Notes under the pieces: generated by a model | Seen by the model: only the letters and a program-made list of their open reading frames with translations | What the model was told of the DNA's origin: nothing | The model's database searches: none | Made by a program: the position numbers and the translations under genes | DNA from: an uncultured Salinisphaerales bacterium | GTDB taxonomy: Bacteria; Pseudomonadota; Gammaproteobacteria; Nevskiales; OUC007 | NCBI GenBank assembly: GCA_937896565.1 | Contig: CALBOV010000020.1 | Span: 1 to 37,088, forward strand | Length of the DNA stretch: 37,088 bases | Direction of reading: 5' to 3' | Shown here: positions 8,581 to 29,343 of the stretch, in pieces | Position numbering within the stretch: position 1 is the first letter of the stretch | How the letters are laid out: the number at the start of each line of letters is the position of its first letter

Positions 8581-8582
8581 TC

Positions 8583-8993: not shown

Positions 8994-9010
8994 GGCGCGC
9001 TCCATATCTC

Positions 9011-9042: not shown

Positions 9043-9070
9043 GGTCGCATTCAAATTCGGAGTGTTCGCC

Positions 9071-11332
9071 GTGGAAGATCATTCGCACTGTCAGCACCAT
9101 CATCACGACGCGAGCAAGCCGGCAGCGCCGGTGAATGCCGCGATCTGGACCTGCCCGATGCACCCGGACGTGCAGGCGTCGTCCCCCGGCGCCTGCCCCA
9201 GCTGCGGCATGGCATTGGAGCCGCGGACGCCGATGCCGCGACGGACGCAGTACACCTGTCCGATGCATCCAGAGATCGTTCGTGATGAACCGGGTGACTG
9301 TCCCATCTGCGGCATGGCGCTTGAACCCATGGTGCCCACCGGGCAGGAGGACGATGGCGAACTGCGCGACATGCAGCGACGGTTCCGGCTGGGCGTTGTC
9401 CTGTCGCTGCCTCTGCTGGTGATCGCGATGGGGCCCATGCTGGGCCTGCCGCTGCATGGCGCCTGGACAGCCTGGGCGGAGCTGGTGCTGGCGACGCCGG
9501 TGGTGTTGTGGGCCGGCTGGCCGTTCTTCGTCCGTGGCTGGGTCTCGCTGCGGGGCTGGAATCTCAACATGTTCACGCTGATCGCACTGGGCACGGGCAG
9601 CGCCTGGCTTTATTCGCTGGTCGCGACCCTGATGCCGGGCGTGTTGCCCGAGGCGTTTCTGGAGCATGGCCGCGCGCCGCTGTATTTCGAGGCGGCGGCC
9701 GTGATCGTGACGCTGGTCCTGCTCGGCCAGGTGCTGGAGGCGCGGGCCCGTGCGCGCACCTCCGGCGCCATCCGGGCGCTGCTCGAGCTCGCGCCCAGCA
9801 TCGCGCACCGGCTGGACGACAGCGGACGCGAGTCCGATGTGCCGCTTGAGCAGGTGCAGACCGGGGATCGGCTGCGCGTGCGCCCTGGCGAGAAGGTGCC
9901 GGTGGACGGCGTGATCGCCGAGGGGGCGAGTCACGTGGATGAGTCGATGCTCAGCGGCGAACCCGACCCGGTGCGCAAGACGGAGGGCGACAGCCTGTCC
10001 GCCGGCACGGTCAACGGCAACGGCAGTCTGGTGATGACGGCCGAGCGCGTCGGCGCCGACACGCTGTTGTCCCAGATCGTGACGATGGTCGCGGATGCCC
10101 AGCGCTCACGGGCGCCGGTGCAAAGCCTGGTCGACAAGGTGGCCGCGTGGTTCGTGCCGGCGGTCGTGGTCTGCGCGGTGGCGGCGGCCGTGGCCTGGGC
10201 CCTGCTCGGCCCGAGTCCGGCACTGGCGCATGCGCTGCTGGCCGCCGTGTCCGTGCTGATTGTTGCCTGTCCCTGCGCGCTGGGGCTGGCGACGCCGATG
10301 TCGATCATGGTCGGCGTGGGCCGTGGCGCGGAGCAGGGCGTACTGGTCAAGGATGCCGCGGCGCTGGAGCGTCTGGAACAGGTCGACACCCTGGTGGTGG
10401 ACAAGACCGGGACCTTGACGGAAGGGCGACCGCGACTCACCGGCGTGCATCCCCTGGGCGATGAGTCCGAGGCTGAGCTGTTGCGCCTCGCGGCCTCGGT
10501 GGAAGCCGCCAGCGAGCATCCGCTGGCCCGCGCCATCGTCGACGCGGCGCGGGATCGCGAGCTGGACCTGGCACCCGCCGATGACTTCGATAGCGACGCC
10601 GGGCTGGGCGTCTGGGCGACGGTGCAGGGTCGTCGGGTCGCGGTGGGCAACACGCATCTGGCGGAGCGTGAATCGGCGGAGCTGTCCGCGGTGCGCGACG
10701 CTGCGGAGGCCGCGCGAGCCGGCGGCGCCACCGTCGTGTATCTGGTCGTCGACGGCCGGCTCGCCGCCTGGCTCAGCATCGCCGACGCCATCAAGGGCAC
10801 CACGGCCGATGCCATGGGGCAGCTGCGGCATGCAGGCATTCGCGTGATCATGCTGACCGGTGACGGTCGCGCTACCGCCGAACATGTGGCGCAGCAGCTG
10901 GGCATCGACGAGGTGCATGCCGAGGTGATGCCGCAGGACAAGGCACGGATCGTCTCCGAGCTGCAGGAACAGGGGCGGGTCGTCGCCATGGCCGGGGACG
11001 GCATCAATGACGCGCCGGCACTGGCCAAGGCCGATGTCGGCATCGCGATGGGGACCGGCGCGGATGTCGCCGTCGAGTCGGCCGGTGTCACCCTGGTGCG
11101 CGGCGACTTGCTGGGTGTCGCCATCGCCATCCGCCTGTCGCGGGCGACGATGCGGAACATTCGCCAGAACCTGTGGTTCGCGTTCGGCTACAACAGCCTG
11201 GGCGTGCCGGTAGCCGCTGGTGTGCTGTATCCGTTTTTCGGATTGCTGCTGTCGCCGATGATCGCCGCCGCCGCGATGAGCCTGTCGTCGGTGTCCGTGA
11301 TCGGGAACGCGCTGCGGCTGCGGCGCGTCTGA
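9071..11332 (+). CDS. copA: Copper-translocating P1B-type ATPase with two N-terminal heavy-metal-binding domains
   Basis: 753 residues. The chosen start is GTG at 9071 (GGAG 9 nt upstream), giving an N-terminus [13 protein letters not shown]. In place of the usual HMA (GMxCxxC) domains there are two tandem YHS-like metal-binding modules, CPMHPDV...[10 protein letters not shown] and CPMHPEI...[10 protein letters not shown] (about residues 25-95). Then come TM helices, TGE/A-domain segments (SGEPDPV), the CPC motif (C400-P401-C402), the phosphorylation motif D444-KTGT, the GDGxAT and [15 protein letters not shown] hinge motifs, and a C-terminal TM pair with YNSLG and MSLSSVS. These TM residues are those of Cu(I) (P1B-1) pumps. 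It exports cytoplasmic Cu(I)/Ag(I). It is transcribed alone from the MerR-type promoter. Confidence 0.95.
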
Positions 11333-11650
11333 ACCGGGTGCGCGAGTTTTTCTTTGTTGATAAAAGAATTAGATATAAATCAACGAACTATTATTAATAA
11401 TTGATGTTGTTTATGACGGCGTTTGGAGGGCGCATCGTCAGCCCGAGACCGTTGCCGCGCAGCTTGGTGGTCGGGCCGCCGTGATCCCGTCATGACGTGG
11501 GCGCCGCTTGCGCCATGTTCTGGCCCGGTCAAGAATGGACTTTTGTCAAAATAAGTCCTCGATCCCGGTCGGATGACCGATCGTCGGCGGCGCGGCCTGC
11601 GCACCGATGGAGCGGCGACACGGGATCGACCGCGGCAACAGGAGACCGCG
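11333..11650. other. Intergenic region with an AT-rich island between copA and the GMC gene
   Basis: 318 bases without a convincing gene. Bases 11344-11413 are strikingly AT-rich against a high-GC background. They contain a perfect 12-bp palindrome ATTATTAATAAT (11390-11401) and GTTGAT/ATCAAC arms about 17 bp apart. A T-run (11347-11355) follows copA, but no strong hairpin precedes it, so a terminator is only possible. The right part (about 11414-11520) is ordinary GC-rich sequence. The conserved TTGACAAAAGTC element lies at 11538-11549. Confidence 0.6.
11527..11558 (-). promoter_or_regulatory. Putative operator, copy 1 of the TTGACAAA element (before the GMC gene)
   Basis: On the minus strand, 11538-11549 reads TTGACAAAAGTC, identical over 12 bases to the element at 13289. 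A further TTGACC lies at 11527-11532 on the same strand. On the plus strand it also sits in a dyad GGACTT-10-AAGTCC (11537-11558). It lies about 95 bp before the GMC start. The orientation is opposite to the other two copies, which suits a symmetric operator better than a core promoter. Confidence 0.5.
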
Positions 11651-13276
11651 TTGAACTACGACTACATCATCATCGGGGGCGGCAGCGCCGGCTGCGTGCT
11701 GGCCAACCGGTTGTCGGCCGACCCCGCCAACCGCGTCTGCCTGGTGGAAGCGGGCCCGGTGGATCGCAATCCGCTCATCCACATGCCGTTCGGCATTGGC
11801 GCCCTGGTCGGCAAGGCCTTCGTCAACTGGGCGTTCTGGAGCACCCCGCAACGGGAGTTGGGCGGGCGTCGGACCTACCAGCCGCGCGGCAAGACGCTGG
11901 GCGGCAGCAGCAGTATCAACGCCACGGTCTGTACCCGCGGACATGCGAGCGACTACGACCGCTGGGCGGAACTGGGCTGCACGGGCTGGTCCTATGCCGA
12001 TGTCCTGCCGTACTTCCGCCGTTCGGAGACCTACCGGGCGCCCTTGGCGGACCGGGACCGTCCGTTTCACGGGACCGACGGTCCGCTGTCGGTCAGCGAG
12101 CGCCGTTACACGAACCCCTTGTCCGAAGCCTTCGTCGAGGCCGGCGTCCAGGCCGGCTATGCACGCAATGACGATTTCAACGGCGCCGACCAGGAAGGGG
12201 TGGGGCAGTTCAAGGTGTTCCAGATCGATGGGCAGCGCTGCAGCAATGCACGTGGTTATCTGACGCCGGAGGTCCTGGCCCGGCCCAACCTGGAGATCCG
12301 CACGGGCCTGCAATGCACGCGGGTGCTGCTGGACGGCGATCTCGCGACGGGGGTGGAATGCGATGACGGCAGGCAACGGATCACGTTGAACGCCGCGCGG
12401 GAGGTGATTCTCAGCGCCGGTGCGTTCCAGTCCCCGCAGCTGCTGATGCTGTCCGGCATCGGGCCCAGAGAGGAGCTGACGCGTCACGGGGTTCCTGTGG
12501 TGGTCGACGCCCCGGAGGTCGGTGCCAACCTGCAGGACCACCTTGAGGTGATCGTGGAGACCCGCGCCCGGTCCAGGGTCGGATTCGCCGCGCGTGGACG
12601 CGGCTGGTGGACGCTGATCAAGGGTTTGTTCCAGTACCTGTTCCGCCGCACGGGGCCGTACACCAGCAATGGTCCGGAGGCGGGCGGCTTCATCCGTTCC
12701 CGTGCCGGAGAGGACATCCCCGACATGCAGTGGCATTTCTCCGCCGTGGCGAACCTGAAACATGGCCTGGAGATGTCCGTGTTGCTCAAGCGGTTCGGAT
12801 ACATCGTTTACGTCTACGCGCTCCGGCCCAGGTCCAGGGGCTGGGTGCGTCTGGCCAGCGGCAACCCGCTGGATGCACCGGAGATCGACCCGAACTATCT
12901 CGCCGAGCCGGAGGACGTGAGCGATCTGGTACGTGGCGTGCGCAAGACGCGGGAGCTGCTGGCGCAGCCAGCGTTCGACGCCCATCGGGATGTCGAGCTG
13001 CATCCGGGACCCGACGTGGAAAGCGACGAGGCCCTGGAGGACTTCGTGCGCCGCACGGCGGAGACGACCTACCACCCCGTGGGCACCTGCCGCATGGGCG
13101 GAGACGACCGGTCGGTCGTCGACCCTGATCTGAAGGTGCGCGGGGTGCGGGCACTGCGCGTGGTGGATGCGTCGGTGATGCCGACCCTGGTCGGCGCCAA
13201 CACCAACGCCGGCACGACGATGATTGCGGAGAAGGGAGCCGACCTGATCCTGCTGGGTGCGACAGCAGGCTCCTGA
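11651..13276 (+). CDS. GMC-family FAD alcohol dehydrogenase (AlkJ/choline-dehydrogenase-like)
   Basis: 541 residues. The start is TTG at 11651, with AGGAG six bases upstream, placing the FAD motif YDYIIIGGGSAGCVLANRLS at the very N-terminus as in the family. Further marks are GKTLGGSSSINATV (GMC signature 1 region), SAGAFQSPQLLMLSGIG (signature 2) and the C-terminal active site with H475 (TTYHPVGTCRMG) and N519 (VGANTNAGTTMIAE). Members oxidise primary alcohols to aldehydes and pass electrons to the respiratory chain; AlkJ acts on medium-chain alkanols at the inner membrane. No signal peptide. Its substrate is unknown. The following oxygenase and ester genes suggest a hydrophobic alcohol. Confidence 0.9.
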   Translation: MNYDYIIIGGGSAGCVLANRLSADPANRVCLVEAGPVDRNPLIHMPFGIGALVGKAFVNWAFWSTPQRELGGRRTYQPRGKTLGGSSSINATVCTRGHASDYDRWAELGCTGWSYADVLPYFRRSETYRAPLADRDRPFHGTDGPLSVSERRYTNPLSEAFVEAGVQAGYARNDDFNGADQEGVGQFKVFQIDGQRCSNARGYLTPEVLARPNLEIRTGLQCTRVLLDGDLATGVECDDGRQRITLNAAREVILSAGAFQSPQLLMLSGIGPREELTRHGVPVVVDAPEVGANLQDHLEVIVETRARSRVGFAARGRGWWTLIKGLFQYLFRRTGPYTSNGPEAGGFIRSRAGEDIPDMQWHFSAVANLKHGLEMSVLLKRFGYIVYVYALRPRSRGWVRLASGNPLDAPEIDPNYLAEPEDVSDLVRGVRKTRELLAQPAFDAHRDVELHPGPDVESDEALEDFVRRTAETTYHPVGTCRMGGDDRSVVDPDLKVRGVRALRVVDASVMPTLVGANTNAGTTMIAEKGADLILLGATAGS

Positions 13277-13315: not shown

Positions 13316-13554
13316 TCATCGCCACAGATGCTGGCTCTCCCGTGGGGGGAGGCCGGATTCGGAGGAGGCAGCGCCACCAAGCGTCGGGCATCCCACCCGA
13401 TGGCTGGCCGCAATGACCTCGGCGTCGCGGTGTGCGGGCTTGCTCGTTCGCGCGTTGGTGTTTCCGCGACCGCGTCGTACCCTCCTCCTACATGTGCGCG
13501 GATGCCCCGGGGCGGGTCGATGCCGGCCCGGGCGATGACCAAGGCGAGGACGTG

Positions 13555-15057
13555 ATGGTGGGAACAGGAACTTCAAGCTGCCGCGTCGCCGTGATCGGCG
13601 CCGGGTTTGGCGGCCTGGGGATGGCGTACTACCTCAAGCAGGCGGGTATTGACGATTTCGTGGTGCTGGAGAAGGGCGACGAGGTCGGCGGCACCTGGCG
13701 CGAGAACACCTATCCCGGCGCCGCCTGCGACATTCCGTCGCATCTCTACTCCTTCTCCTTCGAGAATCACTACCCCTGGTCCAGCCGCTACGCCCCGCAG
13801 CCCGAAATTCTGGGCTACATGAAGCATTGCGCGGACAAGTACGGGCTGCGTTCGCATATCCGCTTTGGCGCCGAAGTCGCCGAGGCACGGTACGAGGAGG
13901 CCTCCGGGCACTGGATATTGACGCTGGCGGACGGCTCGACCTTGCGCGCCGGTCACGTGGTCAGCGCGGTTGGTCAGTTGCACCGTCCGGCGACTCCGGA
14001 CATTCCGGGGCTGGGCCGCTTCGAGGGACACCGCTTTCACTCCGCCCGCTGGGACCATGAGCACGACCTGAGCGGTCGTCGGGTCGCGGTCATCGGCACC
14101 GGTGCCAGCGCGATCCAGTTCGTTCCCGCGATCGCCGACCGGGTGGCGCAGATGTACGTGTTTCAGCGTTCGCCGGGGTGGGTGATTCCCAAGTTCGAAC
14201 GCGTGTTCTCCGGGTTCGAGCAATGGCTGTTTCGTAAATTTCCGATCCTGCATGACATCGACCGCTTCCGGATCAGGATGATCACCGAGACGCTTGCCCG
14301 CGCCTACTCCGGGAATCGGTTCATCGAACGGCTGGTGACCTGGTTGTCGAAGGCGCAGTTCCGTACCCAGGTGCGTGATCCGGCGATGCGGAAGAAATTG
14401 ACGCCTGACTATCCGATCGGCTGCAAGCGCATTCTGCTGACCCGCGACTGGCTGCCGACGCTGATGCGTCCCAACGTCGAACCGGTGACCGATGGCATCA
14501 CCGAGATCACGGCCCATGGTGTTCGCACCGAGGATGGTCAGGAGCGGCAGGTCGACACCCTCATCTTTGGCACCGGATTCGCCGCCACGCAGTTCCTGAC
14601 GCCGATGCGTGTCGTCGGCCGCGACGGTCGCGATCTGCACGAGGACTGGCGGCGGGGCGCCGCGGCCTATCTAGGCATGGAGGTCAGCGGCTATCCGAAC
14701 TTCCATGTGCTCTACGGCCCCAACACCAACCTGGGGTCCGGGTCGATCATCTACATGCTGGAATGCCAGCAGCGCTACATCGTGCAGTTGCTCCAGGATC
14801 AGAATGCGCGTGGCTGGAGAGCAGCGGAAATCAGCGAGCAGGCGGAGCAGGCCTGGATCGAGGAAATGCGTCACCGCAGCGCCACCACCAGCTTCGAAGG
14901 GGGCTGCCGCAGCTGGTACGTGACGGCCGACGGCGTCAACACGAACAACTGGACGGGGCTGATGCGCGAATACCGCGACCGGACCGCGAAGCCGTTGATG
15001 ACGGCGTACCGGCTGACGCCCGCCGTCGCGGACGAACGGCGTCAGGTCGCCGCCTGA
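13555..15057 (+). CDS. Class B flavin monooxygenase (Baeyer-Villiger type)
   Basis: 500 residues. The start is ATG at 13555 (GAGG upstream; GTG at 13552 also in frame). The open frame extends further upstream without a ribosome site. Two Rossmann motifs, VAVIGAGFGGLGMAYYL (FAD) and VAVIGTGASAIQFVP (NADPH), flank the BVMO fingerprint FEGHRFHSARWD (from F156), which fits FxGxxxHxxxW(P/D). The GGTWRENTYPGAACDIPSHL segment and later FGTGFAATQF are also typical. BVMOs turn ketones into esters or lactones using NADPH and O2. Steroid, terpene and methyl-ketone degraders carry this type. It begins an operon with the WS/DGAT and SDR genes. Substrate unknown. Confidence 0.92.
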   Translation: MVGTGTSSCRVAVIGAGFGGLGMAYYLKQAGIDDFVVLEKGDEVGGTWRENTYPGAACDIPSHLYSFSFENHYPWSSRYAPQPEILGYMKHCADKYGLRSHIRFGAEVAEARYEEASGHWILTLADGSTLRAGHVVSAVGQLHRPATPDIPGLGRFEGHRFHSARWDHEHDLSGRRVAVIGTGASAIQFVPAIADRVAQMYVFQRSPGWVIPKFERVFSGFEQWLFRKFPILHDIDRFRIRMITETLARAYSGNRFIERLVTWLSKAQFRTQVRDPAMRKKLTPDYPIGCKRILLTRDWLPTLMRPNVEPVTDGITEITAHGVRTEDGQERQVDTLIFGTGFAATQFLTPMRVVGRDGRDLHEDWRRGAAAYLGMEVSGYPNFHVLYGPNTNLGSGSIIYMLECQQRYIVQLLQDQNARGWRAAEISEQAEQAWIEEMRHRSATTSFEGGCRSWYVTADGVNTNNWTGLMREYRDRTAKPLMTAYRLTPAVADERRQVAA

Positions 15058-15147: not shown

Positions 15148-16551
15148 ATGTCGATACCGATTGCACCCACCGACGCCGCATGGCTCTATGCGGAAAAGGC
15201 GGACATGCCGACTCACATCGGTTGTCTGTCCATCTTCCGGATTCCGGACGCTGCACCGGAATCCTATCTGCTGGATCTCGTCGACAGCTTTCGAAGCACA
15301 CGAATCTTCTCGCTACCGTTCAACTATGTGCTGAAGCGTTCCGGCATCGGCAAGCTGCTGCCGTTCTGGGAGGTGCTGGAGCCGGATCGGATTGATCTGG
15401 ACTATCACCTGCGTCACTCGGCGTTGCCTAGGCCGGGCGGCGAACGTGAGCTCGGCACGCTGGTGTCACGCCTGCATTCCTATCCGCTGGACCGGTCGCG
15501 GCCGCTGTGGGAGTTCCATGTCATCGAGGGGCTGGAGCGCAACCGGTTCGCGCTTTATCTCAAGGCCCACCATTCGCTGGTTGATGGTGTGGCGGGCACG
15601 CGGATTCTGCGGCGGATGCTGTCCGATCGATCGGAGGCCGGGCTGGGTGGCCCGCCCTGGTCGTTCGCGGAACGCGACCTGCCGGATCTCGGTGTCGCGG
15701 CTCCTGCTCGGCCACGATCCCAACCTGCGCTGCTGGATACGCTGAAGCTGCAGGGCGCCGCCGCCTGGGCGGCCGGCAAGGCGCTGGCGGGGCAATGGCG
15801 GGCGTCGGAGGACGAGATCGTCAGACCCTTCGCCGCTCCGATCACGCCGCTGAATCGGCGAATCGGCGGCAAACGCCGCTTCGCCACGCAGAACTACGCG
15901 CTGGAGCGGATTCAGCGGATCGCGCGGCGGGCCGACGTGTCGATCAACGATGTGTTCATGGCCCTTTGCTCGGCTGCGCTGCGCCGCTATCTGGGCGAGC
16001 TGGGCAAGCTGCCGGACGAGTCGCTGGTGGCGGGCATGCCCGTGTCCTATCGCAATGCGGAAGACACCAGGGCCGGGAATGCGATTTCCTTCATCCTCTC
16101 GAGCCTGCACACCGATCTTGCCGAACCGGTGGAGCGGCTGCGTGCCTGCCACGAGTCGGCGCGTGCCGCCAAGGACAGCCTCACCGGGCTCAGCAGTGAT
16201 TCCATGAATCAGTACACGATGCTGTTCATGGCGCCTTACATGATGCAGATCGTGCTGGGAGTCGGCGGTTACGCCCGGCCGATGCACAACCTGATCCTGT
16301 CCAACGTGCCGGGGCCCGCCGAGGCGCTTTATCTCAACGGCGCGACGCTGGAGGAGATCTACCCGATCTCGCTGCTGTTCAATGGCGAGGCGCTGAACAT
16401 CTCGGTGCTGAGCTACAACAACCGCTTCAACGTCGGTTTCACCGGTTGCCGCGACAGCCTGCCGCACATGCAGCGAATTGCCGTCTACACGGGTGAGGCG
16501 CTCGTGGAGCTGGAAAAGGCCCTGAAGATTCGGAGACGACGCACATCATGA
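15148..16551 (+). CDS. Wax ester synthase / diacylglycerol acyltransferase (WS/DGAT family)
   Basis: 467 residues, normal for the family. The active-site motif HHSLVDG spans H141-G147. Also seen are the N-terminal PTDAAWLYAE, SRPLWEFHVIEGL, NDVFMALCSAALRRYL, and the C-terminal DUF1298-type region with LILSNVPGPAEALYLNGA. These enzymes join acyl-CoA to a fatty alcohol or diacylglycerol to make storage lipid. Members in steroid and hydrocarbon degraders often sit in catabolic clusters, where their role is unclear. The ribosome site is poor (A-rich leader). Its end overlaps the SDR gene by ATGA, so the two are coupled. Confidence 0.92.
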   Translation: MSIPIAPTDAAWLYAEKADMPTHIGCLSIFRIPDAAPESYLLDLVDSFRSTRIFSLPFNYVLKRSGIGKLLPFWEVLEPDRIDLDYHLRHSALPRPGGERELGTLVSRLHSYPLDRSRPLWEFHVIEGLERNRFALYLKAHHSLVDGVAGTRILRRMLSDRSEAGLGGPPWSFAERDLPDLGVAAPARPRSQPALLDTLKLQGAAAWAAGKALAGQWRASEDEIVRPFAAPITPLNRRIGGKRRFATQNYALERIQRIARRADVSINDVFMALCSAALRRYLGELGKLPDESLVAGMPVSYRNAEDTRAGNAISFILSSLHTDLAEPVERLRACHESARAAKDSLTGLSSDSMNQYTMLFMAPYMMQIVLGVGGYARPMHNLILSNVPGPAEALYLNGATLEEIYPISLLFNGEALNISVLSYNNRFNVGFTGCRDSLPHMQRIAVYTGEALVELEKALKIRRRRTS

Positions 16552-17330
16552 CCCGAAACGTGACCCTGGTGACCGGAGCCTCCGCGGGCATCGGCCGGGC
16601 GCTGGCCGACGTGTTCGCCGAGCATGGGCACGATCTGGTGCTGGTCGCCCGCTCGGCCGGCCAGCTGAAGTCCGCGGCCGCGGAGATCGCCGGGCGGACG
16701 GGCGTGAAGTGCGACTGGATCGCGGCCGATCTCACGCTGGCTGACGACTGCGACCGCGTGCTGGCCGAGCTGGACGCCCGGGGGTTTCACGTCGATGTCC
16801 TGGTCAACAATGCGGGCGTGCTGCACGAAGGCCATTTTCTGGATGTGTCAGCGGACCGGCATGTCCAACTGGTCGATCTGAATGTCCTGTCGGTGATCCG
16901 ACTAACCCACGCGCTCGCCGGCCGGATGCGCGACCGCCGGGCGGGGCGCATTCTCAATGTCGCGTCCACATCGTCGTTCAATCCGGTCCCGTCGCTGGCC
17001 TGCTACGCCGCCAGCAAGGCGTTCCTGCTGTCGTTCAGCGAATCGCTGTCTCTGGAACTGGAGGGCGAGGGCGTGACCGTCACGGCGCTTTGTCCGGGCT
17101 TCACCAACACCGACATGATCGCCCAGGGCGGGCGGGCGCCGATGCGCTTGCCGGTGATCCCGAATCTGGAGCCTCGCGAGGTCGCGGAGAGCGGCTATGC
17201 GGCCTGCATGAAGGGCGATCCGGTGCGGATTCCCGGGTTGTTCAATCGGCTGGCCGTCACCGGTCTGCGGCACACGCCGGACTGGGTCCGACGCAGGACC
17301 ATCGCACTGGTCGAGCGCATCGGCGTCTAG
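16548..17330 (+). CDS. Short-chain dehydrogenase/reductase
   Basis: 260 residues of classical SDR form. Cofactor motif TGASAGIG is near residue 7, followed by NNAGV at about 85, the catalytic Ser in VASTSSFN, and Y153-AAS-K157. ARS after the second beta strand suggests NADP(H) preference. It overlaps the WS/DGAT gene by 4 bases (ATGA). It probably oxidises or reduces a hydroxyl/keto group of the substrate handled by the BVMO. No closer assignment is justified. Confidence 0.9.
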   Translation: MTRNVTLVTGASAGIGRALADVFAEHGHDLVLVARSAGQLKSAAAEIAGRTGVKCDWIAADLTLADDCDRVLAELDARGFHVDVLVNNAGVLHEGHFLDVSADRHVQLVDLNVLSVIRLTHALAGRMRDRRAGRILNVASTSSFNPVPSLACYAASKAFLLSFSESLSLELEGEGVTVTALCPGFTNTDMIAQGGRAPMRLPVIPNLEPREVAESGYAACMKGDPVRIPGLFNRLAVTGLRHTPDWVRRRTIALVERIGV

Positions 17331-17343: not shown

Positions 17344-17370
17344 TTGACAAACGTCATTTTTATGACGAGG
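17344..17370 (+). promoter_or_regulatory. Putative operator/promoter, copy 3 of the TTGACAAA element (before the diheme cytochrome gene)
   Basis: TTGACAAACGTCATT starts at 17344. It holds TGAC-AAAC-GTCA followed six bases on by TGAC. CGTCAT-TTTT-ATGACG is also a perfect dyad (17351-17366). It aligns base for base with the element at 13289 over 27 positions. It lies 14 bp after the SDR stop and about 95 bp before the cytochrome start, so it probably drives that gene. Confidence 0.6.
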
Positions 17371-17372
17371 CT

Positions 17373-17410
17373 TGTTTCAAGATGAAACATCGTCGGGTTC
17401 TCCGACGATG
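17373..17410 (+). promoter_or_regulatory. Two adjoining inverted repeats in the leader of the diheme cytochrome gene
   Basis: TGTTTCA-AGA-TGAAACA (17373-17389) is a perfect 17-bp dyad. Directly after it, CATCGTCGG (17388-17396) and CCGACGATG (17402-17410) form a perfect 9-bp stem with loop GTTCT. The two share two bases, so as RNA they would compete. There is no T-run, so it is not a normal intrinsic terminator. It could be an operator plus an mRNA-stabilising or translation-controlling hairpin about 30 bases before the start. Confidence 0.55.
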
Positions 17411-17439
17411 CAACCGATGATTGCTACAGGGAGGTAGCG

Positions 17440-19509
17440 ATGCAACGTGCATGGTGGGGTGTTGCGAGCGGCGCGCGAATGCGGGCGTGGGTTCCGGCGG
17501 TGCTCGCGCTGCTTGCCGCGGCGCCCGCGCAGGGGTTCGTGTTCGATGACGATCCGGATGCCTTGCTGGGGAGCAGCCGGGGCGGCACCTGGCAGTGGGA
17601 TTACTGCGTCGGCAAGCCCGACGCCACGCCGGTCCCGGTTGACCCGCGCACGTTGGTGCAGCCCGGCGTCAGTGATGGCAAGGCGGTTCACTTCAATACC
17701 CGCTGGGCCGAGTGCCATGTCGATCCCGAGCTGGTTCAGGAGCATGGCCATCCGGAGACCTGCGGCGGACTGCGAGACCAGTTCGAAGCTGGCGCGAGGC
17801 TGATGGACACCGGCGGCGAGGGTGTCGCGGCGCTGTTCGCAGGCGATAACTACCACGATGCCGAGGCCGCGGGCGGGGTCTCGACATTCAGCGCGACGCA
17901 GTACAACAAGCTCTGGCAGATCTGGGGTGGTTTCTTCGCCCGTCCCGGGAATTTCGACCAGCTGGTGGCCCAGCGCTACGGATCGGGGTTCTCCCAGGGG
18001 CGCAATCCCTATCCGCTGCCCGGGGAAAACCCCAACGCCACCGATGGCGGCAGCGGTCAGCTGCCCGAGATGTTCACCCAGCTGCGCGAGCCGGATGGTT
18101 CCTGGAGCGGCCGGATCGGGGTCACCTGTCACGGTTGTCACAGCGGCGAGGTGGGTACCCCGGCGGATGGCCCGGGCCTGGGATTCCAGTTCGGCGGCTC
18201 CAGCGCCACTGACCTGAATCTGTTCCTCCGTGACATGGCGCCGCTGGGTTACATGGCGTCTGGTGCCATGCCGCTGAACCTGACCCAGGCGCGCGGCACC
18301 AACAATGCCAGCGCGGTCAATATCGCCTTCCTGTTTCCGGACGAGGGATACCCGACGCCGGAGGGTTTTTTCCACATTGCCGGTTCCGGTTCCACCGGAA
18401 GCATGGATTCGCCGAACTGGTGGAACATGGGGCACCGCCCGCAGAAATTCGTCGACGGCTTGTTCCCGATGGATTCCCCACGGGTGGACTCGGTGTTCTA
18501 TACCCCGTTCTTCGGCCTGTTCGGCGGAACGGCGGGCCCCTGGGGCGAGGCGGGTCAGGACTGGATGCGAGAGCACGGTCCGGAGATCAATCGCTGGGCG
18601 GAATCACTGAAGGCTCCGGCCTATCCATTCCCGGTCGACACCGCGCTGGCTGAACAGGGTGCGGTGCTGTTCCACGAACTGGACCTGTGGGCGCCCGAGC
18701 GCGACAACTCCGTTCGCGCGCCGGAAGGCAATGGCTCCTGCGCAGGCTGTCACGGCGCCTACGCGCCGCGCTATGTGAACGATCCGGACTACCTGGCGAC
18801 GCCGCTGCTGGAAGGCATGGCGGGCTACATCGTTCCGCTGGAGATCATCGGTACGGACGAGCGACGGGTGCTGACCAACACCGAGGGCATGCAGCAGGCT
18901 GGGGCGGACAACTTCTTCGGCTATCCGCCGACCAAGGGTAGCGAGGAGGACTGCGGGCCGCAGAACCAGGAGCGGCTGCGCGGCGATCGGGAGCTGGGCT
19001 ACCTGGCCCAGCCGCTGTATGGCGTCTGGGCATCGGCGCCGTATTTCCACAACGGTTCCGTGCCCAACATCTGGGAGGTGCTGAAGCCGGAGGATCGCTA
19101 TCCGATCTGGCGCCGCAAGTCGGCCCCGAAGCCGGCGGGCTCACCGTATTCGGTGGTCATGGGTTTCGACACGAATCTTCAGCGCGCCTATGACACGGAA
19201 AAGCTGGGTTGGGACTACGATCGGATCAACTGCACGTTCTATCCGCCGATGGTGCAGCCGGAGTTCAACTGCAGCATCTGGAATATCGAACAGACACCGT
19301 ATCCGCAGCAGGCTCTGAACAGCTACTACGCCAGCATTACCGGTGCCTGGAACATCAGCTATCCGCCCATCGTGACGCAAAGCGACATGGAAAACCGCAA
19401 GATCATGAACACGCATCTGTACAGTCAGGGCAACGCGGGGCACGAATTCACGTCGGTGCTGACCGATGCGGAACGGCGGGCCATCATCGAGTACCTCAAG
19501 ACGCTCTGA
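17440..19509 (+). CDS. Exported diheme c-type cytochrome, RoxA/RoxB-like (rubber oxygenase / MauG superfamily)
   Basis: 689 residues with a signal peptide (VPAVLALLAAAPAQG) and a strong site (GGGAGG). Two heme c motifs are present: C230-HG-C233-H234 and C434-AG-C437-H438. Size (~70 kDa), two motifs about 200 residues apart and the long N-terminal extension match RoxA/RoxB, which cleave poly(cis-1,4-isoprene) outside the cell. Ordinary diheme peroxidases are ~330-450 residues. Other marks are NPYPLPGENPN before heme 1 and APYFHNGSVPNIWEVLKPEDR after heme 2, a segment common in this superfamily. Four further Cys (DCGP, NCTF, FNCS and others) may form disulfides. I cannot verify the RoxA distal Phe without alignment. 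It could instead oxidise another unsaturated lipid. Monocistronic, with its own promoter region. Confidence 0.72.
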   Translation: MQRAWWGVASGARMRAWVPAVLALLAAAPAQGFVFDDDPDALLGSSRGGTWQWDYCVGKPDATPVPVDPRTLVQPGVSDGKAVHFNTRWAECHVDPELVQEHGHPETCGGLRDQFEAGARLMDTGGEGVAALFAGDNYHDAEAAGGVSTFSATQYNKLWQIWGGFFARPGNFDQLVAQRYGSGFSQGRNPYPLPGENPNATDGGSGQLPEMFTQLREPDGSWSGRIGVTCHGCHSGEVGTPADGPGLGFQFGGSSATDLNLFLRDMAPLGYMASGAMPLNLTQARGTNNASAVNIAFLFPDEGYPTPEGFFHIAGSGSTGSMDSPNWWNMGHRPQKFVDGLFPMDSPRVDSVFYTPFFGLFGGTAGPWGEAGQDWMREHGPEINRWAESLKAPAYPFPVDTALAEQGAVLFHELDLWAPERDNSVRAPEGNGSCAGCHGAYAPRYVNDPDYLATPLLEGMAGYIVPLEIIGTDERRVLTNTEGMQQAGADNFFGYPPTKGSEEDCGPQNQERLRGDRELGYLAQPLYGVWASAPYFHNGSVPNIWEVLKPEDRYPIWRRKSAPKPAGSPYSVVMGFDTNLQRAYDTEKLGWDYDRINCTFYPPMVQPEFNCSIWNIEQTPYPQQALNSYYASITGAWNISYPPIVTQSDMENRKIMNTHLYSQGNAGHEFTSVLTDAERRAIIEYLKTL

Positions 19510-19596: not shown

Positions 19597-20502
19597 TCAG
19601 CCGGCCGCCATCTCCTGCGTCAGGCTCATGATGTCGCGCCGGGGCGGTGCCCCGAACTGGCGGCTGTACTCGCGGCTGAACTGTGAGGGGCTCTCGTAAC
19701 CGACCTCGAAGGCCGCTCTGGACGCGTCGAGATGTTCCGTCAGCATCAGCCGGCGCGCTTCGTTCAGACGCATCCGCTTCTGGTATTGAAGCGGGCTCAT
19801 GGCGGTCGTCGCGCGAAAGTGGTGGTGGAACGCGGAGAGGCTGAGCCCCGCCTTGCTCGCCAGCTCATCCATTTTCACGGGGCGGCTGTAGTTGTTCTTC
19901 AGCCAGTCGATGGCTCGTGAGATCTGGTAGCTGTGGTTGCCGGCGGTGGTGATCTGCTGCAGCAGCGCCCGTTGCTCACCGGCGAGCAGTCGATAAAGGA
20001 TCTCCTGCTGGATGAGCGGTGCCAGTGCCGGGACGTCGTCGGGGTTTTCGAGCAGGCCGATCAGTCGCCTGAACGCATCGAGTAGCGGGTCGGAGACCGC
20101 GCTGACCGCGATGCCCGGTCCGCGTCTGGACGCGGGTGGTGGTGCGAAGTCCTGGCTCAGCATCAGCTGCGCAAGCACTTTCAGGTCGAGCTCCATCGTC
20201 AGCCCGAGGTAGGGACGTTCGCTGCTGGCCTCGATGATCTGCGTGACCACCGGGAGGTCCACGGAGGTGATCAGGAAACTGTGCGTGTCGTAGACGAAGG
20301 TTTCCTCGCCCAGGTAAAGGCGTTTTCGTCCCTGGCCAATCAGGCAGATGCTCGGCGCGAGCATGTAGCTGGTGGGATCGGTCGGGTGATCCCAGCGGTG
20401 CAGGGCGAGCCCCTGAATCGGGGTGTCATGGCGGGTCCTGCCCTCGGTCCATCGGGCAATGTCCGCGGCCAGACTCAAGTTCTCTTCGTGCGCGCTGTTC
20501 AT
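19597..20502 (-). CDS. AraC-family regulator with AraC_N domain (YqhC-like)
   Basis: 301 residues. The N-terminal cupin-like AraC_N domain (about 20-175; TPIQGLALHRWDHPTDPTSY, then SICLIGQGRKRLYLGEETF) precedes two HTH motifs (about 195-290: SRPVKMDELASKAGLSLSAF and LDASRAAFEVGYESPSQFSR). YqhC of E. coli, in this subfamily, senses aldehydes and activates an aldehyde reductase. Here the gene is divergent from the cupin-CMD/ADH/tautomerase/ADH genes, which it most likely controls through the 350-bp gap. Confidence 0.9.
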   Translation of the reverse strand: MNSAHEENLSLAADIARWTEGRTRHDTPIQGLALHRWDHPTDPTSYMLAPSICLIGQGRKRLYLGEETFVYDTHSFLITSVDLPVVTQIIEASSERPYLGLTMELDLKVLAQLMLSQDFAPPPASRRGPGIAVSAVSDPLLDAFRRLIGLLENPDDVPALAPLIQQEILYRLLAGEQRALLQQITTAGNHSYQISRAIDWLKNNYSRPVKMDELASKAGLSLSAFHHHFRATTAMSPLQYQKRMRLNEARRLMLTEHLDASRAAFEVGYESPSQFSREYSRQFGAPPRRDIMSLTQEMAAG

Positions 20503-20852: not shown

Positions 20853-22019
20853 GTGAAGAACCGAAAGCCACTGCTGCAGGCCCTGTTCCTCGCTCTGACG
20901 GGGTGTCTGACCAAGTCCGCATACGCCGACGGGACGTCGCATGACGGGCAGACGCTGTATCCGGCCGGTTCGCAGCAATCGTTCGCCGGGCCGGATGACT
21001 ATTTCTCCGGCGACGTTGATGTCCGGCTCGTCTTTCCCGGCAACGACACCGCGGATTACTCCGGCGCCTACGTCACCTTTCAGCCGGGTGCGCGGACCGC
21101 ATGGCACCGGCATCCGGCGGGACAGCACATGATCGTGACGTCGGGCGTGGCCCTCACCGGCACCCGTGACGGACGCGTGATCCGGTTTGGAAAGGGCGAT
21201 GCTGTGTGGTGTCCGGCGGGCATCGATCACTGGCACGGCGCGACGCCCGACGCGGCGATGACGCACTTCGTCGTCACCGGCAGCCTTGATGGCGAAAACG
21301 TGGTCTGGAAAGACAAGGTGTCGGACGCCGAATACCTCGGCGGGGTGGCCCGCGGCGACCGGGGCGACGCTCCCGTTGGCGCGTTGAGCGTGCGGCATCA
21401 GGCGATCACTCCCATCGCGGCGTACACGGCGAACGGTGACATCGAATCGTTGAAGGCCGCGATTCATGCCGGCCTCGACAAGGGGCTGAGCGTCAGCGAG
21501 GTCAGGGAAGTCCAGATTCACCTCTACGCCTACGCCGGGTTTCCCCGTTCGCTCAACGGCATTGCCGCGCTGATGTCGGTGCTGGACGAGCGGGCCGCCG
21601 ACGGTATCCGCGACGAGCCGGGCATCGCCGCGCAACCCCTGCCGTCGGAGACGAACGCTCGCGATCTCGGAGAGACCGTCCAGACCCGCCTGGCCGGTGG
21701 TCCTGTTGGCGGACCGCTGTTCGATTTCGCGCCGGCGATGAATGAACTCCTGCAAAGCCATCTGTTCGGGGATTTGTTCGCCCGCGGGGTGCTGAACTAC
21801 CAGGACCGGGAGATTGCAACGCTGTCCGCGCTGGCTGCTCTGCCCGGTGTCGACTCGCAGCTTCAGGCGCATGTCCGCATCGCGACCAATGTCGGGCTGA
21901 GCGACGAGCAGCTGTCCGACCTGGTCGTGGTCCTCCGACGTTCGGTGGGCGCCTGGCCCGCCACCAGGGCGCAGCGGGCGCTGGATGCGTCCGGCGGCGG
22001 GCGTGACGACAACCCGTAA
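20853..22019 (+). CDS. Exported cupin - carboxymuconolactone decarboxylase-like protein
   Basis: 388 residues from GTG at 20853 (AGGAG upstream). The N-terminus LLQALFLALTGCLTKSAYA is a signal sequence. It includes a lipobox-like LTGC and also an AYA site, so it may be a lipoprotein or cleaved later. A cupin domain follows (about 60-130; TAWHRHPAGQHMIVTSG with a metal-type HxH, then PAGIDHWHGATP), then two CMD-like repeats (about 170-245 and 285-375; second has QAHVRIATNVGLSDEQL). Single CMD proteins act in protocatechuate breakdown or as AhpD-like peroxidases. Exported cupin-CMD fusions are common beside YqhC-like regulators but have no proven reaction that I know of. Confidence 0.85.
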   Translation: MKNRKPLLQALFLALTGCLTKSAYADGTSHDGQTLYPAGSQQSFAGPDDYFSGDVDVRLVFPGNDTADYSGAYVTFQPGARTAWHRHPAGQHMIVTSGVALTGTRDGRVIRFGKGDAVWCPAGIDHWHGATPDAAMTHFVVTGSLDGENVVWKDKVSDAEYLGGVARGDRGDAPVGALSVRHQAITPIAAYTANGDIESLKAAIHAGLDKGLSVSEVREVQIHLYAYAGFPRSLNGIAALMSVLDERAADGIRDEPGIAAQPLPSETNARDLGETVQTRLAGGPVGGPLFDFAPAMNELLQSHLFGDLFARGVLNYQDREIATLSALAALPGVDSQLQAHVRIATNVGLSDEQLSDLVVVLRRSVGAWPATRAQRALDASGGGRDDNP

Positions 22020-22095
22020 TCCGAATCGACATTCGCATTCGATCGGGCCGACGCGTCCCGAATGCCCATCACGAACCCAGAAGGAGGGTATTGCC

Positions 22096-23259
22096 ATGAC
22101 CCAGGAGATCGACCGGGAAAAGAGAGACTTCATGCGTGCGTCCGCGCTGGCCGGTGGCGGTTTGCTGCTATCCGGACCGGTCGTGCTGTTCGCCGCGAAC
22201 GGGCAGCCCGGGACCATCCGGTCCAGGGGCTACGCGGCCGTGGACACGTCCGGAAAACTGGTGCCGTGGACCTTCGAGCGGCGCCCGGTCGGGGATGACG
22301 ACATCCTGATCGACATCAAGTACGCAAGCATCTGCCATTCGGATATTCATCAGATGAGAGGGCACTGGGGGCCGCAGCAATACCCGCAGGTTCCCGGCCA
22401 CGAAATCGTCGGAGTGGTCACCGCCGTCGGCAAGAACGTCACCAAATTCAAGGTGGGTGATCGTGCTGGCGTGGGCTGCATGGTCGACAGCTGTCTCGAT
22501 TGCGAGCACTGCGAAATAGACCAGGAGCAGTACTGCCCGGAGACTACCTTCACCTACGGCTATCCGATGGCGTCGTCGCCGACCGGCATCTCGCAGGGCG
22601 GGTATTCGAACAACATCGTCGTGCGTGATCACTTTGCCGTGCACATTCCGGAGACGATCAGCCTTCAGGAGGCCGCTCCGCTGCTGTGCGCCGGCATCAC
22701 GACGTATTCGCCGCTCATGCGGGCCGATGTCGGCAAGGGCACGAAGGTCGGTGTCGCCGGCATTGGTGGACTCGGGCACATGGCCATCAAGCTGGCGGTT
22801 TCACGCGGCGCGGAGGTGCATGCCTTTACGACCTCGCCCTCGAAGGTCGATGACATCCGTGGTTTTGGGGTCGAGCACGTCACCGTGGTTGACGATCCGA
22901 AGGCGCTGGCCGCCCATGCGGGAACGCTGGACTACATGATTTCCACCATCCCGGTTCAGTACGACGTGGCTGCCTACGCCTCGGTCGTCAGGCCTTACGG
23001 GGCGTTCACCCAGGTCGGCATGCCCGAGCGGTTCGAACTGACGATTAACAGCATCGCGCTGTCGATCGCGCGGGTGAACTTCAACGTGTCGCTGATCGGC
23101 GGGATGAAGGAAACGCAGGAGGTGGTTGACTACTGCGCGAGCAACGGCGTGCTTCCGGAAATCCAGCTGATCAAGGCCGGGCAGATCAACGACGCCTGGG
23201 ACAAGGTCGTCAACAAGCAGGCCCGCTATCGCTACGTGATCGACGCGGCGACGTTCTGA
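22096..23259 (+). CDS. Zinc-type NAD(P)-dependent alcohol dehydrogenase with a Tat-like leader
   Basis: 387 residues from ATG at 22096 with an excellent site (AAGGAGGGT). The body is a cinnamyl-alcohol/YahK-type [16 protein letters not shown] (catalytic Cys/His), [12 protein letters not shown], structural-zinc Cys cluster [20 protein letters not shown], and the nucleotide fold [17 protein letters not shown]. Unlike cytosolic relatives, it begins with about 35 extra residues ([20 protein letters not shown], then SGPVVLFAA) that look like a Tat leader with Lys-Arg instead of Arg-Arg. If exported, its cofactor supply is puzzling. It may have kept a vestigial leader. Part of the operon controlled by the divergent AraC gene. 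Confidence 0.9.
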
Positions 23260-23327
23260 GTGGCCACGTCGCTCGTGTCGACCGCCTGAATCGCCGCCCG
23301 AACTCGCCGCAGCACCAAGGAGCCACC

Positions 23328-23555
23328 ATGCCACACGTCATCGTCAAACTCTGGCCCGGAAAATCGGAAGACCAGAAGCAGCGCCTGGCCGACGCCATCA
23401 CGCGGGATGTGATGCAAGAGCTCGGCTGCGGACCGGACTCCGTGTCCGTCGCCATGGAGGAAGTCGACCCTGGCGACTGGACCGAGCAGGTCTACCGGCC
23501 GGATATCGAGCGGGGCAGTGGACGGCTTTACAAGAAACCGGGCTACCGCCCGTAA
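23328..23555 (+). CDS. 4-oxalocrotonate tautomerase-family protein
   Basis: 75 residues from ATG at 23328 (AAGGAG upstream). After loss of Met the protein begins with Pro1 ([20 protein letters not shown]), the catalytic base of the 4-OT superfamily. C-terminal half: [20 protein letters not shown]. Length fits the PptA/YdcE-like branch. It would interconvert keto and enol forms, or act on unsaturated carbonyls. Set between two ADH genes, it fits an aldehyde/electrophile-handling unit. Confidence 0.9.
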
Positions 23556-23577
23556 CCCACTTTCACAGGAGAATCCG

Positions 23578-24594
23578 ATGAAAGCGACTGTCATGTATGG
23601 CCCGAGGGACGTCCGGTTCGAGGATCGACCCGATCCCGAGCTGATGAAACCCACCGATGCCATCATCCGTCTGGCCGCGACCAGTGTTTGCGGTTCCGAC
23701 CTGTGGCCCTATCGCGGGCTTCAACCCACGGACGAACCCACCCCGATGGGTCATGAGTACTGTGGCGTGGTCGAGGAGGTCGGGCGTGACGTCAAGACCC
23801 TACGGCCTGGCCAGTTCGTCGTCGGCTCGTTCTTCGCCTCCGACAACAGCTGTCCGGTCTGCCAGTACGGCTACCAGACCTCGTGCCAGCAAACCGAGTT
23901 CGTGGGCGGCGCGCAGGCTCCGTATCTGCGGGTGCCGCTGGCGGACGGCACGCTGGTCGCCGTTGCCGAGACTCCGGATGCCGCCTTCATCCCGAGCCTG
24001 CAGGCCGTGTCGGATGTGCTGGGCACCGGCTGGTTCGCCGCCAGGGCCGCCAATGTCCAGCCCGGCTCGACGACCGTGGTCGTGGGCGACGGCGCGGTGG
24101 GGCTGCTCGGGGTGCTGTCCGCCAGGCAGATGGGCGCCGAGCGCATCATCGCCATGAGCCGGCACGCGCCCCGCCAGGCGCTGGCCCGGGAATTCGGCGC
24201 CACCGACGTCATCACCGAACGGGGCGACGAGGGCGTCGCCCGGATCATGGACATGACCGGAGGCCTTGGCGCCGATTCGGTGCTGGAATGCGTTGGCACG
24301 CAGGAGTCGATGATGCAGGCGATTCACGCGGCGCGCCCCGGCGGGCATGTCGGTTATGTCGGGGTGCCGCATGGGGTGACGCTGGATGGCCAGCAGCTGT
24401 TCTTCGAGCACGTGCATCTGCACGGTGGGCCGGCGCCCGTGCGCCAGTACCTGCCGGAACTGATCGATCTCGTCCTGGACGGTGCGATCAACCCGGGCAA
24501 GGTGTTTGATCTGACGTTGCCGCTCGATCAGGTCGCGGAGGGCTACCGGGCGATGGACGAGCGGATCGCCATCAAGGCGTTGCTCATGCCGTAG
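23578..24594 (+). CDS. Zinc-type alcohol dehydrogenase (MDR family)
   Basis: 338 residues from ATG at 23578 (AGGAG upstream). Catalytic zinc region VCGSDLWPYRG and MGHEYCGVVEEVG. The structural-zinc lobe is reduced (NSCPVCQYGYQTSCQQ, three Cys seen). Nucleotide-binding VVVGDGAVGLLGVLSARQMGA. It resembles the Tdh/formaldehyde-dehydrogenase-like MDR branch. No leader, so cytosolic, unlike the ADH two genes upstream. Last gene of the rightward unit. Its stop is 46 bases before the end of the facing AraC-type gene. Confidence 0.9.
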   Translation: MKATVMYGPRDVRFEDRPDPELMKPTDAIIRLAATSVCGSDLWPYRGLQPTDEPTPMGHEYCGVVEEVGRDVKTLRPGQFVVGSFFASDNSCPVCQYGYQTSCQQTEFVGGAQAPYLRVPLADGTLVAVAETPDAAFIPSLQAVSDVLGTGWFAARAANVQPGSTTVVVGDGAVGLLGVLSARQMGAERIIAMSRHAPRQALAREFGATDVITERGDEGVARIMDMTGGLGADSVLECVGTQESMMQAIHAARPGGHVGYVGVPHGVTLDGQQLFFEHVHLHGGPAPVRQYLPELIDLVLDGAINPGKVFDLTLPLDQVAEGYRAMDERIAIKALLMP

Positions 24595-24640: not shown

Positions 24641-25696
24641 TCAGTGGGGGCGGGCGTCGGGGTTCTTGCGGAACTCGCCCGGCGACATCCGCTTCCAGCG
24701 GCGGAACGCCGCGACGAAGGCGGACGGCTCGGTGTAACCAAGGCGCTCGGCCACCTCTGCCAGCTTCATCTGCGTGGAGCTCAGCAGTTCCTCGGCCAGC
24801 GTCTGGCGCACTTCGTCGACCAGGCCCCGGTAGCTCACACCCTCGCTGCGCAGATGGCGGCGCAGGGTGCGCGACCCCATGTGCATTTCCTCCGCCAGTT
24901 CCTCGATGGACGGCATCGTGGCCGGTGAGCGCAGCAGTCGGTTTCGAACCCGTCCAGCGTAGCCGGACCGCATGCGGCGGCGGGCCAGCAGTTGTCGGCA
25001 TTGCTCCTCGCACATGCGCGCCATCTGCGGGTCCGCCTGTGGCAGCGGGGCGTCCAGGTCCCGGGCGGCCAGCAGGATCGCATTGCGGCGGGCACCGTAG
25101 ACGGGCTTCACCCCGCAGAGCTTTTCCAGGCGACGGGCGTAGGACGGCTGGGGAAAGCGGAACTGGGCCTCCAGCGTGTGGAATCCGCCCGGGCGCAGTT
25201 CCCAGGCCGCCGCCGCCCAGGCGGCGAAATCGCGTTCGACGAGAAACTGGCGCAAATCCTCGGGGATGGTGCTGTCGTCGAGCACGATGCGCAGGTTGCC
25301 GCCGCTGCTTTCCAGTCGGTAGCGAGCGAGGGCATAGCTCAGGTCGAGGTAGCGCACGGCCAGGCGCGCGGCGCTGCGGAACGTCGAACTGCTCAGCAGC
25401 GCATAGCCCCAGATGCCGTAGGTGGAGAGCCGGTAGCGCAGGCCCACGTCCAGTCCGCAGAACGGTTGATCGCGCAGGCCGTGAACCAGGTTGCGGATGA
25501 TCGCCAGTTCCTGCGTCGTGCTGATCTCGGTGTCCGGATCGAACAACAGATCCGGCTGCAGGTCCGTTCCCCGCAGGCAGGCGGCCTCCGTCAGCCCGTG
25601 TTCCCGCGCGAAGCGGAACATGATCTGCGCGCTGGCCGCCGGACGGAGCAACTCGTCTCCCGGCGACGCCGTGGCTGCTTCCGTGCCTGGATCCAT
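24641..25696 (-). CDS. AraC-family regulator with Arabinose_bd-type N-domain (OruR-like)
   Basis: 351 residues. The N-terminal sensing domain (about 25-215; AREHGLTEAACLRGTDLQPDLL, YGIWGYALLSSSTFRSA) is the type found in OruR/ArgR-like AraC proteins that respond to small acids or acyl compounds. The C-terminal HTH pair is at about 245-345 (MPSIEELAEEMHMGSRTLRR, LAEVAERLGYTEPSAFVAAF). It is divergent from the thiolase/FadJ/ALDH/ECH genes and is their likely regulator. The start ATG at 25696 has a weak ribosome site. Confidence 0.9.
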   Translation of the reverse strand: MDPGTEAATASPGDELLRPAASAQIMFRFAREHGLTEAACLRGTDLQPDLLFDPDTEISTTQELAIIRNLVHGLRDQPFCGLDVGLRYRLSTYGIWGYALLSSSTFRSAARLAVRYLDLSYALARYRLESSGGNLRIVLDDSTIPEDLRQFLVERDFAAWAAAAWELRPGGFHTLEAQFRFPQPSYARRLEKLCGVKPVYGARRNAILLAARDLDAPLPQADPQMARMCEEQCRQLLARRRMRSGYAGRVRNRLLRSPATMPSIEELAEEMHMGSRTLRRHLRSEGVSYRGLVDEVRQTLAEELLSSTQMKLAEVAERLGYTEPSAFVAAFRRWKRMSPGEFRKNPDARPH

Positions 25697-25912: not shown

Positions 25913-27118
25913 ATGGAAGCATTCATCTACGATCACGTTCGCACCCCCCGCGGCAAGGGGCGGGCGGACGGCGCGTTGAACGAGATCACGCCGCTGCAGC
26001 TGGGCACGCAGGTGCTGGAATCCCTGCGCGAGCGTTCCCGGCTGGATACCCGTCTCGTCGACGACGTGATCATGGGGATCGTGTCGCCGGTCGGCGAGCA
26101 GGGCGCCGTGCTGCCGCGCTCGATGGCCTTGTGCGCCGGCTACGCCGAAACGGTCTCCGGCGTCCAGGTCAACCGGTTCTGCGGTTCCGGTCTGGAGGCC
26201 TTCGCGATGGCGACGGCCAAGGTGATGTCCGGCCAGTCGGAGGCCGCGATCGGCGGCGGCGTGGAGAGCATGTCCCGCGTCAAGATGGGATCGGACGGCG
26301 GCGCCTGGCCCACCGACCCCGCCTTCGCGCCCAAGGTGCATTTCGTGCCGCAGGGCATTGGCGCCGACCTGATCGCGACGCTGGATGGTTATGGCCGCGA
26401 GGACGTCGATGCGTTCGCCGTGGAAAGCCAGCGTCGGGCCACGGTGGCCTGGGAAGAGGGGCGGTTCTCCAAGTCGATCATGCCGGTGAAGGATGTCATC
26501 GGGCAGACGGTGCTGGACCGTGACGAGCACATCCGTTCCGGCACGACGGTGGAGTCGCTGGGGCAACTCAAGCCCTCGTTCGCGATGATCGGCCAGCATG
26601 GTGGATTCGACGCGGTCGCCATGCAGCGCTATCCGCAGGTCGAGGCCATCGAACACGTGCACACCGCCGGCAACTCCAGCGGCATCGTCGACGGCGCCTG
26701 CGGCGTCCTGGTCGGCACCAGGGCGTTCGGCGAAAAGGCCGGGCTCAAGCCTAGGGCGCGGATTCGCGCCTGCGCGGCGATCGGGTCGGAGCCCTGCATC
26801 ATGCTCACCGGTCCGGCGGCGGTGTCGGACAAGGCGCTGGCCCAGGCCGGGATGGATGTCAGCGACATCGACCTGTTCGAGGTCAACGAGGCCTTCGCCT
26901 CCGTGGTGCTGCGCTTCATGAACGCAATGGAGGTCTCGCACGACAAGGTCAACGTCAACGGTGGCGCCATCGCGATGGGTCATCCGCTCGGCGCCACCGG
27001 CGCCATGATTCTCGGCACGGCGCTGGACGAACTGGAGCGTCGGGATCTCAGCACCGCGCTTTGCACGCTTTGCGTGGGTGCCGGCATGGGCAATGCCGCC
27101 ATCATCGAACGCGTGTAA
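25913..27118 (+). CDS. Thiolase (acetyl-CoA C-acyltransferase)
   Basis: 401 residues. Active-site C90 (NRFCGSGLEA), H357 in NVNGGAIAMGHPLGATGA, and C387 (CTLCVGAGMG) form the thiolase triad. GGGVESMS, HTAGNSSGIVDG and NEAFASVV are also in place. It cleaves 3-ketoacyl-CoA to acetyl-CoA and a shorter acyl-CoA. Followed after 30 bases by the multifunctional beta-oxidation gene (thiolase first, as in fadIJ), it forms a two-gene beta-oxidation core. The ribosome site is weak (AGGG). Confidence 0.95.
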   Translation: MEAFIYDHVRTPRGKGRADGALNEITPLQLGTQVLESLRERSRLDTRLVDDVIMGIVSPVGEQGAVLPRSMALCAGYAETVSGVQVNRFCGSGLEAFAMATAKVMSGQSEAAIGGGVESMSRVKMGSDGGAWPTDPAFAPKVHFVPQGIGADLIATLDGYGREDVDAFAVESQRRATVAWEEGRFSKSIMPVKDVIGQTVLDRDEHIRSGTTVESLGQLKPSFAMIGQHGGFDAVAMQRYPQVEAIEHVHTAGNSSGIVDGACGVLVGTRAFGEKAGLKPRARIRACAAIGSEPCIMLTGPAAVSDKALAQAGMDVSDIDLFEVNEAFASVVLRFMNAMEVSHDKVNVNGGAIAMGHPLGATGAMILGTALDELERRDLSTALCTLCVGAGMGNAAIIERV

Positions 27119-29311: not shown

Positions 29312-29343
29312 GTTCGCCGGCGGATCGTCAAGGAGGCGGCGTC

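Follow-up and report, generated by a model that had tools for sequence, protein, structure and literature searches.

This locus raises two linked questions: to which type of haem oxygenase its exported dihaem protein belongs, and whether the catabolic genes around it process the products of that enzyme. The window, by which we mean the whole 37,088-nucleotide stretch of DNA that was analyzed, is one entire contig (C20) of an incomplete genome of 4.07 Mb. A preliminary description had reported an exported protein of 689 residues with two CxxCH motifs 204 residues apart, and we confirmed this open reading frame; the haem motifs are CHGCH (residues 230–234) and CAGCH (residues 434–438), and their spacing is exactly 204 residues. 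The gene starts with ATG, preceded by AGGGAGGT, which provides a good ribosome-binding site. Read by eye, the N-terminus MRAWVPAVLALLAAAPAQG/F carries a hydrophobic stretch resembling a Sec signal, with no lipobox cysteine at the cleavage site. The mature protein has a predicted mass of about 72 kDa and a predicted pI of about 4.7. It carries a MauG motif (PYFHNGSVP, residues 534–542; test pattern PY[FLM]HNGSVP), and H668 was assigned as the distal axial histidine, the second axial ligand of the C-terminal haem.

Profile searches clearly separated the Rox subtypes. The protein scored 1089.8 bits against the NCBIfam RoxB profile (cut-off 900), compared to 595.8 bits against RoxC, under the cut-off of 900, and 423.9 bits against RoxA, far under the cut-off of 1000. 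The Pfam RoxA-like_Cyt-c domain was detected at 71.7 bits (cut-off 26.7), and a sequence search of the PDB returned RoxA (4b2n) as the sole match (E 3e-102). The same structure was the only Foldseek match in the PDB (E 1.7e-49, TM 0.70–0.74) for a haem-free AlphaFold model of the protein (mean pLDDT 77, pTM 0.83). In a tree of 64 rows that included RoxA, RoxB and RoxC, the window protein fell inside a 14-row RoxB clade with 100/100 support, separate from RoxA and RoxC, in the company of Spongiibacter, Ketobacter and Nannocystis proteins; the nearest named RoxB was that of Spongiibacter pelagi. A peroxidase-type dihaem cytochrome (CcpA/MauG) would have the dihaem core and the MauG motif in common with the window protein, but the cytochrome c peroxidase profile (CytoC_perox) reached 100.9 bits, under its cut-off of 150, and both tree and fold group the protein with Rox. 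The comparison with peroxidases that had been suggested at the outset thus gave no peroxidase placement by profile or tree, and we rejected this identity as highly improbable.

Alignment with RoxA placed F337, V338 and F353 at the positions of RoxA F301, W302 and F317. The preliminary description had pointed to these distal Phe and Trp positions; both phenylalanines are kept and the tryptophan is replaced by valine. The F317 and W302 positions are occupied by Phe and Val in characterised RoxBs and by Ala and Phe in RoxCs (PMC10837239, Table 1; PMC6311187), and the F/V/F set of the window protein agrees with the active-site residues F309 and V294 of RoxB35Y (PMC10837239, PMC6311187). V338 is the usual RoxB state and not a defect. 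RoxA of Steroidobacter cummioxidans 35Y (PDB 4b2n) shares with the window protein the fold, the haem sites, F301 and F317 at about 37% identity; a RoxA identity was rejected on its score and on the replacement of Trp302 by Val. RoxC, a putative Rox type and a lipoprotein, belongs to the same superfamily but has Ala at F317, a lipobox and often a third haem, none of which was seen here, and a RoxC identity was rejected on these grounds and on its score. The RoxB (LatA) proteins of S. cummioxidans 35Y and Rhizobacter gummiphilus NS21 resemble the window protein throughout: all exceed the profile cut-off, are of about 70 kDa, keep the F317 equivalent with Val at the W302 position, and have two haem motifs and a MauG motif; the N-terminus of the window protein, read by eye, would also fit their Sec-type export with no lipobox. 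The window protein is more acidic, the pI of RoxB35Y being 6.3, and its gene lies in an unlike setting, with Baeyer–Villiger monooxygenase (BVMO), WS/DGAT and AraC genes around it.

Sequence, tree, residues and fold agree and place the window protein firmly in the RoxB family. Judged from its sequence, the gene is roxB, so that the original reading of a RoxA/RoxB-like oxygenase holds and is narrowed to RoxB. Because rubber oxygenases of the RoxB type have been described, with homologues on record in Ketobacter alkanivorans, Spongiibacter tropicus and Alcanivorax (PMC10731047), the enzyme is one further member, beside about a hundred known, and not an undescribed type. The suggestion of an undescribed system was not upheld for the enzyme, and only the Rox-BVMO linkage, considered below, seems unreported in the literature searched.

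By analogy with the two characterised RoxBs, we infer that the window enzyme would act as an endo-type dioxygenase on polyisoprene and release keto-aldehydes, RoxB products being of C20 and longer. In the exported protein, O2 would bind to the N-terminal haem, where two phenylalanines line the pocket, and C=C bonds within polyisoprenoid chains would be cut to give aldehyde and methyl-ketone ends. A polyisoprenoid other than rubber may be the native substrate. Going further, the RoxB fold and active site could have been kept for a different unsaturated hydrophobic substrate, for instance squalene, a carotenoid or another algal lipid. The genome holds about six divergent Rox genes and relatives hold up to ten, seemingly beyond the needs of natural rubber; the mature pI is closer to that of RoxC than to that of RoxB35Y; and no rubber activity was seen for two RoxC proteins (PMC10837239). 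However, in its F/V/F residues and its RoxB score the protein matches the characterised RoxBs that cleave rubber, and we regard such a change of substrate as rather unlikely.

Five more Rox genes were found in the same genome: three on contig C39, one on contig C256, and another that seems to be divided over the ends of contigs C216 and C158. No RoxA over its cut-off was found in this incomplete genome. The C256 paralogue is of RoxC type. On C39, where the three genes form a Rox island and all three N-termini look lipoprotein-like by eye, the copy at 17200 exceeds the RoxB cut-off yet carries Ala in place of F317, and the one at 35533 is a tri-haem form. The third copy (38128–40068, equivalent to L010 1501–3621, minus strand) is also over the RoxB cut-off and contains an in-frame TGA, at the codon of a cysteine that is invariant in all aligned Rox proteins covering the site (Cys611 in the window protein). 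A selenocysteine reading of this codon was rejected: since no SelB passed the cut-off in a profile search of the incomplete genome, a nonsense mutation or an assembly error is likelier.

The BVMO, GMC, alcohol dehydrogenase (ADH) and aldehyde dehydrogenase (ALDH) genes that had been named as neighbours were all found in the window (Table 1). A further short-chain dehydrogenase (SDR) is listed between the enoyl-CoA hydratase and acyl-CoA dehydrogenase genes. The true ALDH start probably lies downstream of the start of its reading frame, since its domain begins so late. The repeats between the SDR gene and roxB comprise CGTCAT-TTTT-ATGACG and a 10-pair hairpin, and represent a possible operator, promoter region or terminator; searched for as a shared operator, the hairpin pattern was absent from all other loci compared and was seen only in two copies of this same stretch. 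Because these two palindromes intervene, co-transcription of roxB with the SDR gene is not assured, and roxB may be transcribed separately, perhaps from its own promoter. At 1996–11332 the window also carries genes for CusCBFA-like metal efflux, one of which encodes an HlyD protein fused to CusF domains, and after them a P-type ATPase gene whose product has heavy-metal-binding domains.

Table 1. Predicted features of the window around roxB.
Feature	Position	Strand	Remarks
GMC flavoprotein alcohol dehydrogenase/oxidase	11573–13276	+	68–69% identical copies adjoin BVMO and Rox in two relatives
Type I Baeyer–Villiger monooxygenase (BVMO)	13432–15057	+	orthologue and a Rox gene no more than 8 kb apart in 7/21 relatives
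WS/DGAT acyltransferase	15148–16551	+	also beside roxB in Paraliomyxa (L027)
Short-chain dehydrogenase (SDR)	16548–17330	+	4-base overlap with the WS/DGAT gene
Two perfect inverted repeats	17352–17411	.	17352–17367 and 17387–17411; between SDR and roxB
roxB, predicted secreted dihaem rubber oxygenase B	17440–19509	+	689 aa; profile, tree, residues, fold
AraC-family regulator (AraC_N type)	19597–20502	-	convergent with roxB
Two zinc alcohol dehydrogenases	21985–24594 (21985–23259, 23518–24594)	+	not kept beside Rox in relatives
AraC-family regulator (Arabinose_bd type)	24641–25696	-	in several relatives, homologue flanked by Rox and BVMO
Thiolase	25913–27118	+	83% identical in the Rox-BVMO cluster of G055
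FadB-type enoyl-CoA hydratase/3-hydroxyacyl-CoA dehydrogenase	27149–29311	+	74% identical in the Rox-BVMO cluster of G055
Aldehyde dehydrogenase (ALDH)	28966–30816	+	domain from residue 153
Enoyl-CoA hydratase	30722–31693	+	found again in Rox-BVMO clusters
Acyl-CoA dehydrogenase	34384–35616	-	
AMP-forming acyl-CoA synthetase, truncated by contig end	35786–37087	-	counterparts of 56–72% identity in relatives' Rox/BVMO clusters

Operons of the mymA type combine a BVMO with an SDR, an acyltransferase and an AraC-type regulator. To our knowledge they contain no Rox gene. The window has the same four kinds of gene, a likeness judged by gene content alone. Both type I fingerprints are present in the window BVMO, in the order Rossmann motif (56), [GA]GxWx4[FY]P[GM]x3D (86), FxGx3Hx3W[PD] (197) and second Rossmann motif (222); mymA itself and the definition of the type I motifs are described in PMC9044951.

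We then considered whether this BVMO, which had been named before any linkage test, is associated with Rox genes in other genomes. Among the 21 relatives having both, the best BVMO orthologue and a Rox gene lie no more than 8 kb apart in 7, where 0.34 were expected (15 kb was the distance used for the expectation). The resulting P is 2e-8 across genomes and 0.0013 at genus level (3 of 12), for counts that are not independent, as the linked relatives are three genera of one family, and for a linkage that was noticed before it was tested. Because the genomes are related, the first P is too small and the genus-level P is the fairer one. Other BVMO paralogues of the same genomes were ruled out as Rox-linked partners (1 of 43 linked), and Rox is present in 13 of 15 genomes whose BVMO is at least 57% identical, compared to 9 of 45 of the rest. 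We found no report of a Rox-BVMO cluster in the literature searched, and this linkage appears to be the only new part of the system.

The linked clusters have further genes in common with the window, namely those for the acyl-CoA synthetase, GMC, FadB and thiolase proteins at the identities given in Table 1, together with enoyl-CoA hydratase, AraC regulator, acetoacetate-decarboxylase-like and acyl-CoA dehydrogenase genes. No single relative has the full shared set. The earlier proposal that the neighbours process the oxygenase products therefore stands in part: homologues of the BVMO, GMC, acyl-CoA synthetase, FadB/thiolase and enoyl-CoA hydratase genes recur beside Rox, whereas conservation of ADH and ALDH was not found among the Rox loci of relatives. 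Nor is the cluster present at the four closest gammaproteobacterial roxB orthologues, all from MAGs (L018, L019, L020 and L028), and a general conservation of the roxB neighbourhood was rejected, since close orthologues are flanked by unrelated peptidase, MgtE, glutamate-synthase or GGDEF genes.

These unrelated neighbours could mean that roxB encodes an independent rubber oxygenase that lies by chance beside a ketone, wax-ester and beta-oxidation region, as proximity without function. The possible promoter or terminator in front of roxB would fit such an arrangement, as would the BVMO modules that some genomes, e.g. G036, carry although Rox is missing from the vicinity or from the whole genome. 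Chance does not readily account for a linkage that is peculiar to this BVMO group, for the synthetase, thiolase, FadB and GMC genes common to the clusters, or for an independent thiolase-FadB-SDR-roxB run in the myxobacterium Paraliomyxa, where the thiolase and FadB pair again adjoins a canonical roxB, with esterase and WS/DGAT genes nearby. We consider chance proximity unlikely, though a serious alternative. The BVMO that directly adjoins one of the several Rox genes of Spongiibacter pelagi is a different one.

We thus favor, as the probable explanation, that RoxB cleaves a polyisoprenoid outside the cell and that the surrounding catabolic genes break down the fragments. The later steps we infer from the chemistry and from the conserved gene linkage. 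Once the RoxB fragments had entered the cell, the BVMO would convert the methyl-ketone end to an acetate ester, and a hydrolase, together with the GMC enzyme or other alcohol and aldehyde dehydrogenases, would take the ester to an acid. The AMP-forming acyl-CoA synthetase would then activate this acid, and acyl-CoA dehydrogenase, enoyl-CoA hydratase, FadB and thiolase would finish its beta-oxidation. The recurring Rox-BVMO-acyl-CoA synthetase linkage suggests in this way a breakdown route for the methyl-ketone ends that Rox enzymes generate.

The BVMO-linked Rox proteins of relatives are tri-haem or unassigned forms and not canonical RoxB; most of them are tri-haem, keep F317 and score below both the RoxB and RoxC cut-offs. 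Three tri-haem Rox genes near a BVMO, all on the minus strand (L144 12640–15138, L145 11301–13679 and L147 5928–8345), encode Gln at the W302 position. With F317 kept, these three proteins possibly represent a further Rox subgroup. More tentatively, and with more doubt than confidence, we propose an undescribed isoprenoid-cleavage pathway that extends across the gammaproteobacteria of this order. Trisubstituted C=C bonds would be cut there by exported RoxB or by tri-haem Rox lipoproteins of the outer membrane that keep F317, a dedicated BVMO would open the methyl-ketone ends to acetate esters, and acyl-CoA synthetase and beta-oxidation would follow. If this pathway is real, the BVMO-linked tri-haem Rox proteins would form one more active subgroup of Rox. 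Through the partner genes, the linkage also opens the unexplained RoxC-like and tri-haem Rox proteins to testing.

Rox genes also occur in larger islands, with about nine within 55 kb in S. pelagi (L017 genome, G426; C23 304771–359241) and six in about 28 kb in G005 (C1 408836–436103). DUF3570 proteins and thioredoxin-like proteins of the AhpC/TSA type are repeated neighbours of Rox (L144, L145, L146, L147 and L149), and DUF3570 only is found beside Rox in the genome studied here (L065 11157–12596); both are possible accessory or maturation partners of Rox. Between Rox genes of G005, one further gene (L071 6506–7729, plus strand) encodes a weak match to the Lcp-type rubber oxygenase domain (PF09995, 37.8 bits).
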